Positions 9,227-15,137 of a stretch of 64,000 nt of DNA are shown one piece after another (positions within the stretch are counted from its first letter, which is position 1; each line of letters opens with the position of its first letter). The notes beneath the pieces were generated by a model that saw nothing but the letters and a program-made list of their open reading frames with translations, searched no databases and had not been told where the DNA came from. The position numbers were made by a program, and so were the translations under genes. This stretch comes from Lunatimonas salinarum (lineage in GTDB: Bacteria; Bacteroidota; Bacteroidia; Cytophagales; Cyclobacteriaceae): the NCBI RefSeq assembly GCF_017811155.1, contig NZ_JACVCV010000005.1, positions 248,001 to 312,000 on the forward strand, read 5' to 3'.

Positions 9227-11557
9227 TCAAAAGTTATACCTAGCCGACACAAGGAAAATTCTTGTCTCCTGTTTAGAATAAAACGACTGCGCAAAGGTAC
9301 GGGAGAAGGCACTGCCTGCAAACCGCCTGGTATCAAAGATATCCCTGACACTAATAGACATATTGGCTTTTCCACCCATAAAGCGTCGCTGCACACTTCC
9401 ATCGATGAAATACTGAGATAGGTCACGACCTTGCGCTTCAATTTCCGGCGATTCGTAGTTTGCCACAAATTGTAGCCTGACCCCCCAAGGCAGTTTAAAA
9501 TCCTGAGTAAGCTTGGTGTTCCAGGAAAAGCCCGAATTGGTGAATTCTTCACTGATATTTGAACCGTCAACTGCAATCTGGAAGAGCGTGACTCCTCCAT
9601 TTAGCGAGTACCATGGAGTGATTTCCGCCGTTCCGATCCACTCCACCCCATAGGACTCAGCAGAAAGCAGGTTGTCGGGCTGGGAATAGGAAATACCATC
9701 CTCCACAATCGTAATAAAATCCAATTGGCCGCTCACACTCCTATAAAAAACATTCGTAGTCAAGCTTGTACGTTCGAAATTCGCCATGTGACCCAATTCA
9801 AACGAATTAATCATTTCAGGCTGAAGATTTGGGTTGCCCCTTCTTACACTTAAGCTGTCTGTGATATCCGGAAAGGGATTTAACCTCCAAGCTGTAGGGC
9901 GATCGATGCGACGGCTGTAGGTCGCTTTCACCGCGTGGGCATCGTTAATCGTGTACATCCCCTGCAAACTTGGAAAGGGATTGAAGTATTGCTGCCGGTT
10001 GCGTTCTCCTGTATTTGCCAGATAAGTATCCACTACGGTTAGTTCTCCCCGCAAACCTATCCCATACTCCCATTTGCCAAACGTTCCTGAATAGACCGCA
10101 TAGGCCGCGTGGATTTGGTCCTTGTATGCGAAAAAATTGCTTATTCTCTCGTCGTTCACAAAGTCTTGGCTGGTTTCCTCAAATCGAAAGTATTGGTAAT
10201 CATTATCAAACTTTCGGATGGTGGATTTCAGGCCTGCCTCAAACTTCCCCGATTTCGTGGGTCGGATGTAATCCACCTGAAATACGGAGATATTACGCAC
10301 TTCATCGGTGAGGGCGCGCTCCTGACCTGTAAGATTCTCGGCTACCGGATCCAAGGTATTGTTAAAAATTTCAATGCGCTGGGTTTTATACTGATTTCGA
10401 AACGAGTGGCTAGCCGTAGCACGCAACAAGTGTCCCCCTTCCCCGAGGTTGTGTTCAAAAATCAGGGCGTTATCCAATCCATCATCGGTCTCGTTTTCTG
10501 TATTTCGCCTGACGTAATCGAAGGAATCCAAGGAACCCGCCCGATCCAATTCCGCAAAAAGCGTGTTTGTCTGCCAGTCTTCACTGGTTTGGTACACCCC
10601 TTCATAGCTCAAAACACTGTTTCCAAAGTAAAAATCAAACCCATAATTCACATTATGGCCTGCGTTTCGGCTGCTGCTACGGGTATTTTGATCCAATAGT
10701 TCCTCCCTATCAAACAGTTCCCTGGTAATTCTACGGTCTCCTATTCCCTTCCAATCACGGTAATTATAGCTTGCATACGTATTGAGCTTTGTCGTACGGT
10801 GGTTGATTCTTCCGCCAAGGTTTGTTCTGTTACGGGTACCGTAGGTCAGCTCCAACCCGCCATTTGTCCCCAAATCCTGCCCCTTTTTAAGGATAATATC
10901 GATTACCCCGCCTTCGGCCTCGGCGTCAAACCGTGCGTTGGGGTTGTTGATGATGCGGATCTCCTCCACGGCACTGGCAGGCAATTGGTCTAAATTCTGG
11001 GTAAGGGAGGAGTTTCGCCCGTTGATGAGGACATTGATCCCAGAACTCCCCCGCAGTGATAGGGTACCATCCTCTGCTACCGAAATCGAAGGGGTATTTC
11101 TCAACACGTCGAGCAGCGTACCACCCACATTGGCAATGTTGTTTTCTGGCGTGATGATCAAACCTTCCATGCTGGTCCTTACTGGCATTTTGGTCGTTTC
11201 TACGATGACCTCCTCCAGTCTCGTGCCTTCACTGACCATTTCCAACGTTCCCAAATCCTTCGTAGAACTCAAATCCACACCGGTTACCTCCAAGTCATTG
11301 TAACCGATAAAAAATGCTTTGAATAGGTAATCTCCGGCAGCGGCAGCCAATCGAAATTGCCCATTTTCGTCCGTATCGCCAAATACTACTGGCAAGGAAG
11401 ATTGAGTCGATTCAAAAAGCGCTACTTGCACAAAGGCCAATGGCTCCTTGGTATTTTTATCTACTAGCTTACCACGCACTTGCGCTTGCTGCGCAATCGA
11501 AGGTAGAGTCAGTCCTAATATACCAAAAATTAGAAGTGTATTAATAAATAGTTTCAT
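9227..11557 (-). CDS. TonB-dependent outer-membrane receptor (OMP_b-brl_3 type)
   Basis: 776 residues. Signal peptide (1-22, ending SIAQQ), a carboxypeptidase-regulatory-like domain (about 25-110), a plug domain (about 120-225, with LRGSSGINVLINGR and IRIINNPNARFDAEAEGGVI), then a long beta-barrel ending in the usual aromatic C-terminus RYNF. It lacks the SusC signature and has no SusD partner. Barrels of this type commonly sit next to a two-component system; here the kinase gene ends 60 bases upstream and the response regulator precedes it. Its promoter carries the same operator as the regulator gene, so it is the likely target. Ligand unknown; metal or siderophore-like uptake or envelope sensing are possible. 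Confidence 0.9.
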   Translation of the reverse strand: MKLFINTLLIFGILGLTLPSIAQQAQVRGKLVDKNTKEPLAFVQVALFESTQSSLPVVFGDTDENGQFRLAAAAGDYLFKAFFIGYNDLEVTGVDLSSTKDLGTLEMVSEGTRLEEVIVETTKMPVRTSMEGLIITPENNIANVGGTLLDVLRNTPSISVAEDGTLSLRGSSGINVLINGRNSSLTQNLDQLPASAVEEIRIINNPNARFDAEAEGGVIDIILKKGQDLGTNGGLELTYGTRNRTNLGGRINHRTTKLNTYASYNYRDWKGIGDRRITRELFDREELLDQNTRSSSRNAGHNVNYGFDFYFGNSVLSYEGVYQTSEDWQTNTLFAELDRAGSLDSFDYVRRNTENETDDGLDNALIFEHNLGEGGHLLRATASHSFRNQYKTQRIEIFNNTLDPVAENLTGQERALTDEVRNISVFQVDYIRPTKSGKFEAGLKSTIRKFDNDYQYFRFEETSQDFVNDERISNFFAYKDQIHAAYAVYSGTFGKWEYGIGLRGELTVVDTYLANTGERNRQQYFNPFPSLQGMYTINDAHAVKATYSRRIDRPTAWRLNPFPDITDSLSVRRGNPNLQPEMINSFELGHMANFERTSLTTNVFYRSVSGQLDFITIVEDGISYSQPDNLLSAESYGVEWIGTAEITPWYSLNGGVTLFQIAVDGSNISEEFTNSGFSWNTKLTQDFKLPWGVRLQFVANYESPEIEAQGRDLSQYFIDGSVQRRFMGGKANMSISVRDIFDTRRFAGSAFSRTFAQSFYSKQETRIFLVSARYNF

Positions 11558-11576: not shown

Positions 11577-11610
11577 CAAGTATAGCACACAATTTTGAAC
11601 CAAATTTGAA
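11577..11610 (-). promoter_or_regulatory. Operator plus -7 element of TonB receptor gene
   Basis: Read on the minus strand: TTCAAATTTGGTTCAAA, 9 bases, TATACTTG. The hexamer TTCAAA is repeated with 11-base periodicity, the pattern used by OmpR/PhoB-type regulators (family knowledge). TATACTTG is one mismatch from TAnnTTTG, and the distal half of the operator overlies the -33 position, so activation is the likely mode. The same arrangement with the same 9-base spacing occurs at 13870-13903. Confidence 0.65.
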
Positions 11611-11617
11611 GCTAGGT

Positions 11618-12868
11618 TTACCATTCAATCGTTATGGTATGAGTAGCACCTTCTACACCATAATGGAACGAAAAACGATAATGCCTGCAAATTTGCTGTA
11701 CAATAGCGAGGCCTAGACCAATGGAGTCGTGGTGTTTGCTGTCCTTTTTAAAACGTTGAACCAGCATTTCAGGCTTAATGTTTGAAGGTTGACCGGAATT
11801 CTGAATCCACAAATTCGCCTTGGTAAGCCGAACTTCGATCCAGCCTCCTTCCAAATTGTGCTTTATGGCGTTGCCCAGTAAATTATGGACCAATGTTTCT
11901 GCGACAAAGGCATGCATAGGTACATACACCGGCTCGGAAGCGGTAACCTTAATGTCTATTCTCCGGATTTCCGCAATTTCTTTAAGAGAGGCTAGATTTT
12001 CGAGTACCAGGTCAGCAATATTAACGGTCTCCGACGAAGAAAACTCATTATTTTCCAATCGAGCAAGGAATCCGAGCGACCTCACGATTCGATTGATACG
12101 CTCATTGTTTTGATAAATGGAATCAATAAGCCCTGCTTGATCCTCTGTCATTTCCAAGTTCATCAGATGCTCAAGCTTTCCCCTAATGACGGCGGAGGGT
12201 GTCTGCACTTCGTGGCTAATATTTTCCGAAAACTCTTTGATTTGCCGGTAATCGGCAATCATTTTGTCCGACATGCCCTCCAAAAATGAATTTAGCTCGG
12301 CAAACTCATTGATGGCCGAATGATCAAAACGCAAAGGTTGCTGTTGCGTCAGGTCAAAGCGCTGCACCTTGGCGAGTGTAGCGTTAAAGGGTTTTAAGAT
12401 ACGATTGGCAAACGCTCGGAAAAACAGGATGATGAAGCCTAATTGAATCAACAAAACCACCAACATTGTTTGGACCACGGTCTCAGAAATATCCTCTGTC
12501 TCCACCACGAGGTTATAATAGGAAATACGATAGTGCTCTCCGTTGATTTTGTACGACTTACTGGCTTTTAGCTGCTTTTCATGTCGATTCATCGGATCAT
12601 GGTAGGCTATGGTATCCCGCAGATATAGCTCCTCAATTGGTGCATCGAAGGGCAGTTGCGTTATTTCCAGTCGATCACTATTTAGCCCTTCCGGCATCAC
12701 GCCTTGCTCGAGCCTTCCGGCAAAGGCATCTATCTGCCGGTTAAGTTCCCTTCCCAATTCAAAATCAATCTCGGAAACCAGTTTTCGATACACATAAAAC
12801 CCTCCAATGGCCAATGCCAATAATGTGAGGGCTACATAAAGTGCTGTAAGCAGATTTAGAAGTTTCAT
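11618..12868 (-). CDS. Sensor histidine kinase of TonB-receptor operon
   Basis: 416 residues. Two membrane helices (about 7-27 and 133-152) flank a small periplasmic domain of about 105 residues; a HAMP-like linker follows, then HisKA with ENISHEVQTPSAVIRGK (His219), and HATPase_c with LLGNAIKHN and SIGLGLAIVQQ. The G1 box is reduced to QNSGQP (Asn for the usual Asp), a variant common in this Bacteroidota subfamily. It lies 140 bases downstream of the response regulator and 60 bases upstream of the receptor, so the three form a signal-response unit. Confidence 0.92.
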   Translation of the reverse strand: MKLLNLLTALYVALTLLALAIGGFYVYRKLVSEIDFELGRELNRQIDAFAGRLEQGVMPEGLNSDRLEITQLPFDAPIEELYLRDTIAYHDPMNRHEKQLKASKSYKINGEHYRISYYNLVVETEDISETVVQTMLVVLLIQLGFIILFFRAFANRILKPFNATLAKVQRFDLTQQQPLRFDHSAINEFAELNSFLEGMSDKMIADYRQIKEFSENISHEVQTPSAVIRGKLEHLMNLEMTEDQAGLIDSIYQNNERINRIVRSLGFLARLENNEFSSSETVNIADLVLENLASLKEIAEIRRIDIKVTASEPVYVPMHAFVAETLVHNLLGNAIKHNLEGGWIEVRLTKANLWIQNSGQPSNIKPEMLVQRFKKDSKHHDSIGLGLAIVQQICRHYRFSFHYGVEGATHTITIEW

Positions 12869-13008
12869 AGGTGTTTTATGGCTGTTTCCAAGCGCATTAT
12901 TAATCCAAAATGATCAGACTGTAGCCGATGGGGAATCCAGGACATTAGGCTGACCAGGAAGCGGACAGCCATCTCAAGGTGCACGTCTGTTGAGAAATAC
13001 CAAATGGC

Positions 13009-13692
13009 TCATCGTGCGTGCTCGTCTAACTTATAACCCAATCCATAGACCGTACTCAGGTAGTCCGTTCCCCCTGCAGCGCAAATTTTCTTTCGGAGAT
13101 TTTTAACGTGCTGGTATACAAAATCTAAGTTGTCCAAGTCATGTGTATAATCCCCCCATAAGTGTTGTGCAATTGCTTGCTTGCCCAAAACCCTGTTTTT
13201 ATTGGTAATAAAAAAGACTAACAGATCAAACTCCTTGGGGGTTAAATCCACCAAATTATCCTGCACCCTAACCTGCCTGTTTTCGTGGTCAACGCAAATC
13301 TCCCGAAAAACCAACTCGTCCTTCCCATCGAATTTAGACCGGCGTACGATCGCCTTGATCCTCGCCAACAGTTCCGCTAGATGAAAGGGTTTAGGGAGGT
13401 AGTCGTCTGCCCCAAGGTTAAGCCCCATCAGCTTATCTTCCAGCGAATCCTTGGCAGAAATGATCAGAACCGGTGTATTCCCCCCCAATCCCTTGATCTT
13501 TTCAATTAGAGAGAGGCCATTGCCATCCGGCAACATAATATCCAATAAGATACAATCGTATGAATGGATCAGCATACGATCTTCGGCTTCGAATAAATTA
13601 CCCACCGCCTCACAAACGACCCCCTCGTTGGTCAGATAATGGACCACATTTTGTGTAAGCTCAGGATTGTCTTCTACCAAGAGTATCTTCAT
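13009..13692 (-). CDS. OmpR/PhoB-family response regulator
   Basis: 227 residues. N-terminal receiver with LLVEDNPE, phospho-acceptor Asp51 in LLDIMLPDGNG, Ser in IISAKDS and Lys in LPKPFHL; C-terminal winged-helix DNA-binding domain (about 130-225) with the PKEFDLLVFF and VYGLGYKL signatures. It pairs with the kinase just downstream. Upstream of its gene lies a tandem TTCAAA-type site identical in layout to the one before the TonB receptor gene, indicating autoregulation and control of the receptor. Confidence 0.94.
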   Translation of the reverse strand: MKILLVEDNPELTQNVVHYLTNEGVVCEAVGNLFEAEDRMLIHSYDCILLDIMLPDGNGLSLIEKIKGLGGNTPVLIISAKDSLEDKLMGLNLGADDYLPKPFHLAELLARIKAIVRRSKFDGKDELVFREICVDHENRQVRVQDNLVDLTPKEFDLLVFFITNKNRVLGKQAIAQHLWGDYTHDLDNLDFVYQHVKNLRKKICAAGGTDYLSTVYGLGYKLDEHAR

Positions 13693-13869
13693 CTGTCTAT
13701 TATTGTCTTTGAGCGGGCACGCCTTTTCCCGCTTTGGGGGAACACTTCCCTACCAAATATCCGTATTAGATATAACCTATCCGCAACCGATCATCCCCGC
13801 ATGCCTATAGGCAGCGTGTCGGATTGAATTCAAACGATTACAACGCTAGCTGCAATGGTAGTGATCATA

Positions 13870-13903
13870 CAAAGGTAGCCGTGAAACTTGAAGCAAGTTT
13901 GAA
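13870..13903 (-). promoter_or_regulatory. Operator plus -7 element of response regulator gene
   Basis: Read on the minus strand: TTCAAACTTGCTTCAAG, 9 bases, TACCTTTG (a perfect TAnnTTTG). It matches the receptor operator at 14 of 17 positions with identical spacing to the -7 box. The site also contains an inverted repeat AAACTTG/CAAGTTT. The predicted transcript would have a leader of about 170 bases. Confidence 0.65.
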
Positions 13904-13946
13904 ATGCGTTAGAAAGGAATACAAACGTTCATTTACCAGCCCATAA

Positions 13947-15137
13947 TTACTTCTTATCCGCAAGCTCATATAACACAAAACTGAGATAATCTTCGTCATT
14001 GTCGTAATTATCGGGGTGGTTGACGGAGATGTAGAGTCCTTCTTTGGCAACAAAGACATTTTCTGTCACGTAGTTGTAGCCTTTAAATCGGGTCTCACCC
14101 AATACTTGGAGATTCCTATCCAAGATCATGATCGAAAAATCCTTGGCAAATCCCCGAAGCTGTTCCAGCTCCTCTTCGCTTTCGATTTCTATCTTGGGAA
14201 AACAAAATCGGTAAAAAACTTCCCGATAAGGATCGTACAACAGCAATCCGTATCTAGGTTCAGTAAACATATACCGCAAGACTTCGTCCCTTTCCGCAGT
14301 CCTCGAAAGGGTGGGAAATGTCTCGGGAAAAAACCGACTTTTTGCCGGAATAGCATCAAGCAGATCGCCCGCTGAGGACGCTGCGTAAAGATTATGATCC
14401 GCAAGAAAAGAATAAACAACCTGGTCCGGCGAAGCCGCCATACTGTAGTACGGTACCCGCAAGCCATCTGACAGGTAACCTTGCGGATATTTATGGGAAG
14501 TAAGCTCAGTATCTCCCGAATTCATATCCAGTTCAATACTTAATACCTGCTTGGAAAGAACCTTTTCTTCCGTGTCTTTGATATTACCAGGAGCCACTAC
14601 TTTTGCCAATATTTTGTCCCCACGGATAATTGGATAAGAATTAAAAAAAGATGACCTGACTTGCGGGCCGGAATACCCTTCCGGCGATGTAAAGGAAATC
14701 GTTGAGAGGTAGGATTGGTCAATATCCGTCAAATAAATGGATCCCGGATGGGTGGTAAAAAGGAATATGCTGTCGGCAGAATGCACATGAAACCCGAAAA
14801 CCGTACCCACTCCCTGACTTCCTTCTACATCGAATTTCAAGGTTTTTGCAAGCTCTTTTCGATCCATATCGTAAACCTGAATTTCATTACGGGGAGACTG
14901 AATATTGAATAGATAGGACTTCTCTCCGTCGAGATAACCAAGGCCATAACTAAAATTTCCCGTTTGATCATCCAGTGGAATACGGAGTTTATTCTCCGCA
15001 TTTTGGAGTACCTTGTCCGGGACCGCCTGTTCCTGGATTGCTGATCCACAGGCCGCCAAAAGAATGTAGGCTGCAAACAGGAAACAAAAAGTCAAGCTTC
15101 GATGAAAGGATTCGATGGAGATGTGGGAGTAGACCAT
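13947..15137 (-). CDS. DUF4221 family lipoprotein
   Basis: 396 residues with a lipoprotein signal (ILLAAC, Cys30) followed by a beta-propeller-like sequence: repeated segments such as YGLGYLDGEKSYLFN, NEIQVYDMD and YGLLLYDPYREVFY. It matches my recollection of DUF4221, a family common in Cyclobacteriaceae and of unknown function, often found in multiple copies. It would be anchored to a membrane facing the periplasm or outside. It is a single gene with gaps of about 250 bases on both sides; no clear promoter was found. Confidence 0.8.
   Translation of the reverse strand: MVYSHISIESFHRSLTFCFLFAAYILLAACGSAIQEQAVPDKVLQNAENKLRIPLDDQTGNFSYGLGYLDGEKSYLFNIQSPRNEIQVYDMDRKELAKTLKFDVEGSQGVGTVFGFHVHSADSIFLFTTHPGSIYLTDIDQSYLSTISFTSPEGYSGPQVRSSFFNSYPIIRGDKILAKVVAPGNIKDTEEKVLSKQVLSIELDMNSGDTELTSHKYPQGYLSDGLRVPYYSMAASPDQVVYSFLADHNLYAASSAGDLLDAIPAKSRFFPETFPTLSRTAERDEVLRYMFTEPRYGLLLYDPYREVFYRFCFPKIEIESEEELEQLRGFAKDFSIMILDRNLQVLGETRFKGYNYVTENVFVAKEGLYISVNHPDNYDNDEDYLSFVLYELADKK

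Follow-up and report, generated by a model that had tools for sequence, protein, structure and literature searches.

A response regulator of Lunatimonas salinarum, its sensor kinase and the outer-membrane receptor encoded behind them appear to form a real, conserved and apparently closed autoregulatory circuit, which is of a plain OmpR/PhoB-type kind and in which the operator and the regulator clade seem to be new. Judging from the DNA sequence, the regulator probably binds upstream of the -7 box at two promoters and thereby activates its own operon as well as the receptor gene; we infer the regulator as the binder, activation as its mode and the receptor as its output. The three genes run in one direction, in the order regulator, kinase and receptor, and the elements of the circuit lie as follows in the window (the whole stretch of 64,000 nucleotides that was analysed).

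13909..13914, minus strand: possible third half-site TTCTAA, one more 11-base step upstream of the regulator operator (sequence reading)
13887..13903, minus strand: tandem operator TTCAAACTTGCTTCAAG of the regulator-kinase promoter (direct reading and pattern search; leave-one-out score 25.9 bits)
13870..13877, minus strand: -7 box TACCTTTG, 9 bases past the operator and 177 nt before the regulator ATG (direct reading; N9 conserved)
13009..13692, minus strand: response regulator, 227 aa, receiver and OmpR/PhoB-type winged helix (PF00072 89.8 bits, PF00486 66.7 bits, both above their cut-offs)
11618..12868, minus strand: sensor histidine kinase, 416 aa, HisKA and HATPase_c (NF052314 PorY-family kinase, a subfamily-level model, 371.1 bits, cut-off 350)
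11594..11610, minus strand: tandem operator TTCAAATTTGGTTCAAA of the receptor promoter (direct reading and pattern search; leave-one-out 34-base composite 25.2 bits, largest null 9.7)
11577..11584, minus strand: -7 box TATACTTG, 9 bases past the operator and 19 nt before the receptor ATG (direct reading; N9 conserved)
9227..11557, minus strand: TonB-dependent receptor, 776 aa, OMP_b-brl_3 family (PF14905 354.5 bits, PF00593, PF13715)

The regulator promoter carries the composite TTCAAACTTGCTTCAAG-N9-TACCTTTG at 13870-13903, and the receptor promoter the composite TTCAAATTTGGTTCAAA-N9-TATACTTG at 11577-11610, between the kinase and receptor genes and 7 nt past the kinase stop (both on the minus strand). 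An earlier note on this DNA had described tandem operators exactly 9 bases from their -7 boxes, and direct reading together with a pattern search confirmed them. The agreement it gave for the two 17-mers (14 of 17 bases) is exact, the mismatches falling at positions 7, 11 and 17, and the hexamers of both operators are indeed direct repeats with an 11-base period. The sites also precede the regulator and receptor genes as described, to which we add the 177-nt distance of the regulator site from its ATG and the possible third half-site. The regulator has the receiver followed by Trans_reg_C that is expected of the OmpR/PhoB type, in keeping with tandem direct half-sites at a period of about 11 bases, and reached the cut-off of no NCBIfam equivalog among the 25 matches listed; the receptor combines a TonB-type beta-barrel with a regulatory domain (PF14905, PF00593, PF13715). 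Upstream of the regulator lies the gene of a DUF4221 protein (13947-15137 of the window, minus strand).

Related regulators were gathered from two sources, 39 genomes screened by protein search and 291 genomes of the order screened by alignment, and the stretches read comprise 18 places from the former and 120 from the latter, which are part of the matches listed, together with 4 named Bacteroidota loci taken from 80 (76 were left out). A named locus to which the clade can be traced is L121 of Chitinophaga filiformis, and a receptor homologue is present in 7 of the 18 places from the protein search. The earlier note had proposed comparing the upstream regions of orthologues, and there the repeats are conserved at both places, distant relatives included. 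In many loci they can be made out by eye upstream of both genes, and a de novo search by expectation-maximisation, with the window excluded and 62 representatives under 80% identity, returned the motif TTCAAAATTTCTTCAaAA from 61 regulator upstream regions (log-likelihood 426.6 versus 90-112 in three shuffles) and cTTCAaAaTTtCTTCAaA from 56 post-kinase regions (365.1 versus 84-86 in three shuffles). The spacing is likewise fixed: at sites picked by the 17-mer alone, the mean box score at N9, out of a maximum of 9, is 6.94 versus 2.78 at other offsets before the regulator (31 sites, z 10.1) and 6.16 versus 2.68 after the kinase (32 sites, z 7.2), and a score of at least 7 is reached at N9 by 22/31 and 19/32 sites versus about 2% at other offsets. 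A model trained on clade members, not on paralogues, found a site at 14 bits before the regulator in 31 of 62 clade members, in none of 16 paralogous regulators and in 3 of 1240 shuffles, within a range of 160 bp that the window's own regulator site falls outside, so that it is scored as a miss. About half of the wider clade, and 9/30 in the window's subclade, show no regulator-promoter site. The two sites of one locus are only slightly more alike than sites of different loci (13.1 versus 12.57 of 17 bases; p 0.027, 21 loci). The post-kinase regions of L067, L225 and L251 carry four consecutive half-sites at intervals of 11 bases.

The recognition helix NLDFVYQHVKNLRKK assigns the window's regulator to a group of 30 that share Gln194-His195, on one side of a branch with a support of 89. 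When each locus of this subclade was scored by a 34-base model trained without that locus, and sites above the largest null (9.7 bits) were counted, the composite was found at 21/30 regulator promoters and 24/29 post-kinase promoters, the window's two included. The distance from the end of the -7 box to the ATG is 5-8 nt in 13 of the 21 regulator sites (L062, L063, L065, L066, L068, L225-L228, L233, L242, L247 and L258). In F. johnsoniae, transcription begins 4-5 nt downstream of the -7 box, and leaders longer than 10 nt make up 87% of the total, according to the accessible part of the study (PMC6847099). By the F. johnsoniae rule the transcripts of these 13 regulators would be nearly leaderless, with about 0-4 nt ahead of the ATG, whereas the window's regulator would have a long leader.

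Downstream of the kinase, a receptor homologue follows in 16 of the 26 subclade loci for which 1.5 kb or more was read, the window included. A neighbour scan of 20 proteins, two of which come from elsewhere, shows what may stand there otherwise: PepSY_like proteins (L070, L071, L075, L255, L276, L280, L283), Omp85 with DUF5982 (L073, L241), a trypsin-PDZ protease (L251), MFS proteins (L271 and, as second gene, L067), a sigma-70-type (ECF-like) factor (L236, 3622-4197, plus strand, with the operator in the post-kinase region), a peptidase M16 (L242, whose post-kinase region yielded no site) and proteins with no family (the first gene of L067; L257). Since the proteins after the kinase in relatives are mostly envelope proteins, we infer that the signal of the circuit would come from the cell envelope.

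The kinase encoded alongside would phosphorylate the response regulator, and the phosphorylated form would bind the tandem TTCAAA-N5-TTCAAA head to tail, as is the habit of OmpR/PhoB-type winged-helix proteins on tandem sites. Because 9 bases separate the near half-site from the TAnnTTTG box, the regulator bound one turn upstream of the -7 box would most likely touch or recruit RNA polymerase and switch the promoter on. One site would drive the regulator and kinase genes, amounting to positive feedback, and the other the receptor gene behind the kinase; with sites at both promoters, a single signal would therefore raise the regulator-kinase pair and the receptor.

Among known systems, PhoB and PmrA/BasR are OmpR/PhoB-family regulators with tandem operators. 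The window's system resembles them in domain make-up, in its 11-base direct repeats and in a near half-site about one turn before the -10/-7 box, but it differs in its half-site TTCAAA and its Bacteroidota-type TAnnTTTG box, and its regulator scores far below the cut-offs of the PmrA and PhoB models (166.1 of 330 and 148.8 of 296.2, respectively). HaeSR of Porphyromonas gingivalis is a two-component system that binds its own promoter and those of TonB-dependent receptors, much as is predicted for binding in the window, but its target set is far larger: its sites precede 57 genes, and a repeat operator is not among the features given in the accessible part of the report (PMC3764172). PhoPR of Riemerella anatipestifer is likewise of the OmpR family, autoregulated and bound at promoters of receptor and beta-barrel genes, again a parallel to predicted binding, whereas its motif is another one (core TTTAACA) and its targets are far more numerous, with 583 peaks in the part of the article available (PMC9603813). 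A literature search, with most subscription journals outside its coverage, found no description of the operator reported here. A predicted operator, promoter geometry and target are now given for a regulator clade present in 129 of the 291 genomes sampled from the order (E at most 1e-75), and both a residue-to-base specificity rule and the activator-dependent use of an unusual Bacteroidota promoter are made directly testable.

The kinase might also serve a second partner. It is the only one of the 41 kinase matches in the genome to exceed the PorY cut-off, and the genome encodes PorX on another contig (G000:C22:43528-44085; L355 1195-2751, minus strand; 518 aa, 836 bits, cut-off 300), which would fit a kinase that acts on both the adjacent regulator and the distant PorX, the receptor circuit being one branch of type IX secretion control. 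We consider this a minor possibility, which does not exclude activation by the adjacent regulator. The system shares with PorX/PorY of P. gingivalis a kinase above the PorY subfamily cut-off, but its partner is of the OmpR type and carries Trans_reg_C, unlike the 518-aa receiver-PglZ protein PorX, whose sites are given as ATT-N8-AAT in the excerpt available (PMC8050853). The PorY label is a subfamily name and may be over-wide, being carried by 6/6 relatives' kinases with OmpR-type partners.

Sites next to a -7 box can also block the polymerase, and the same regulator might use the same sites to repress both promoters until the signal relieves them. Such behaviour would have a parallel in R. 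anatipestifer, where deletion of phoP raises 34 of 50 genes to which the OmpR-type PhoP binds, as far as the available text goes (PMC9603813). Repression is nevertheless improbable here: N9 is fixed at both promoters, as polymerase contact needs, whereas a repressor should tolerate shifts. The lack of TTTG at a spacing of 19-21 in all 45 subclade sites argues only weakly in favour of activation, since F. johnsoniae likewise has a faint -33 element, at least in the portion of the study at hand (PMC6847099).

Activation by the neighbouring regulator presupposes that it is the binder. The genome holds 22 regulator-like matches, and another regulator might own the operator and control both promoters, with the neighbouring regulator a mere target. 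This is very improbable, since the sites accompany this regulator-kinase pair across the clade, are missing before paralogues and change with the recognition helix of the adjacent regulator itself. The last point comes from 143 loci handled, of which 142 were kept and 40 of these remained without an operator label, and from two models applied to all, a TTCA model trained on the Gln-His group only and a TTCC model trained on the Ser-Gln and Tyr-Gln groups only. The half-site type (TTCA or TTCC) tracks residue 194 of the recognition helix in 98 of the 102 labelled loci: Ser or Tyr at this residue accompanies TTCC in 38 loci and TTCA in 2, and other residues accompany TTCC in 2 and TTCA in 60. 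At the regulator promoters of the Ser-His group, on which neither model was trained, TTCC was found in 17/25, TTCA in 2 and no site in 6; the Thr-His group has TTCA in 14/41 and TTCC in none, and the Ala-His group has TTCA in 7/19 and TTCC in 1. A loose site model had tied TTCC to Gln195, which was discarded, as the Ser-His group had been read in a shifted register and residue 194 predicts better. The link between residue 194 and the operator hints that the adjacent regulator does the binding. The tree, built by a quick method and with long branches flagged, requires 6 residue changes and 8 operator changes; independent changes are few, and its well-supported branches hold only 2 independent residue-operator pairs, both mostly in the expected direction and too few for significance.

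We tentatively suggest, at somewhat less than even confidence, that a large Bacteroidota regulator clade carries a readable specificity code, in which the layout (tandem half-sites, N9, TAnnTTTG) would be fixed, residue 194 and the half-site would change together (Gln, Thr or Ala with TTCA; Ser or Tyr with TTCC), the single neighbouring target would be swapped among envelope genes and the regulator in much of the subclade would be translated from an almost leaderless transcript starting at its own ATG. This reading became slightly likelier because the retrained models gave a cleaner match of residue to operator.

In the window, the only exact matches of TTCAAAYTTGSTTCAAR are the two operators; at 3 mismatches 5 places are found with 2.75 expected, which is not unusual (21/100 shuffles reach 5). 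The earlier note had raised the prospect of many random hits genome-wide, and for the half-site pattern alone it proved justified (159 places at up to 3 mismatches versus 92 for the reversed control), whereas the composite with the -7 box at N9 withstood it, with 8 places in the 5.46-Mb genome at up to 3 mismatches versus 5 in the control, of which the window's two have 1 mismatch and the other six have 3, with no place at 2. A second composite pattern, drawn up with the window's two sites in view and thus matching them at zero mismatches by construction, gave 4 places versus 3 in the control. That the two sites are a chance resemblance is a negligible prospect: at 3 mismatches the 17-mer by itself is frequent, and 17-mer models score three places in coding frames of the window (21308, 55510 and 59728) near real sites, but the composite search and the conservation with the window left out speak against it.

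As a tool for finding other members, the motif did not deliver, no further convincing composite site being found in the 5.46-Mb genome. The self-controlled regulon proposed with the receptor as target is accordingly upheld for the shared OmpR/PhoB-type operator at both promoters and not for a wider membership, which leaves the interpretation as a whole partly supported. Because the composite search found no other clear target in its own genome, the system looks like a closed local circuit and not a regulon. The six additional composite places, considered as signs of a wider regulon, all carry 3 mismatches and were treated as chance, with reserve for L085 and L087: L083, L084 and L088 fall within long open frames, L085 and L086 between frames, and L087 within a 95-aa frame on the opposite strand and also just ahead of a 185-aa frame. 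A near-copy of the 17-mer, TTCAAACTTGATTCAAA (1 mismatch; G000:C144:215226-215242, minus strand), which is without a -7 box at N9, lies immediately ahead of a frame of 679 aa that matches Beta_helix and NosD weakly.
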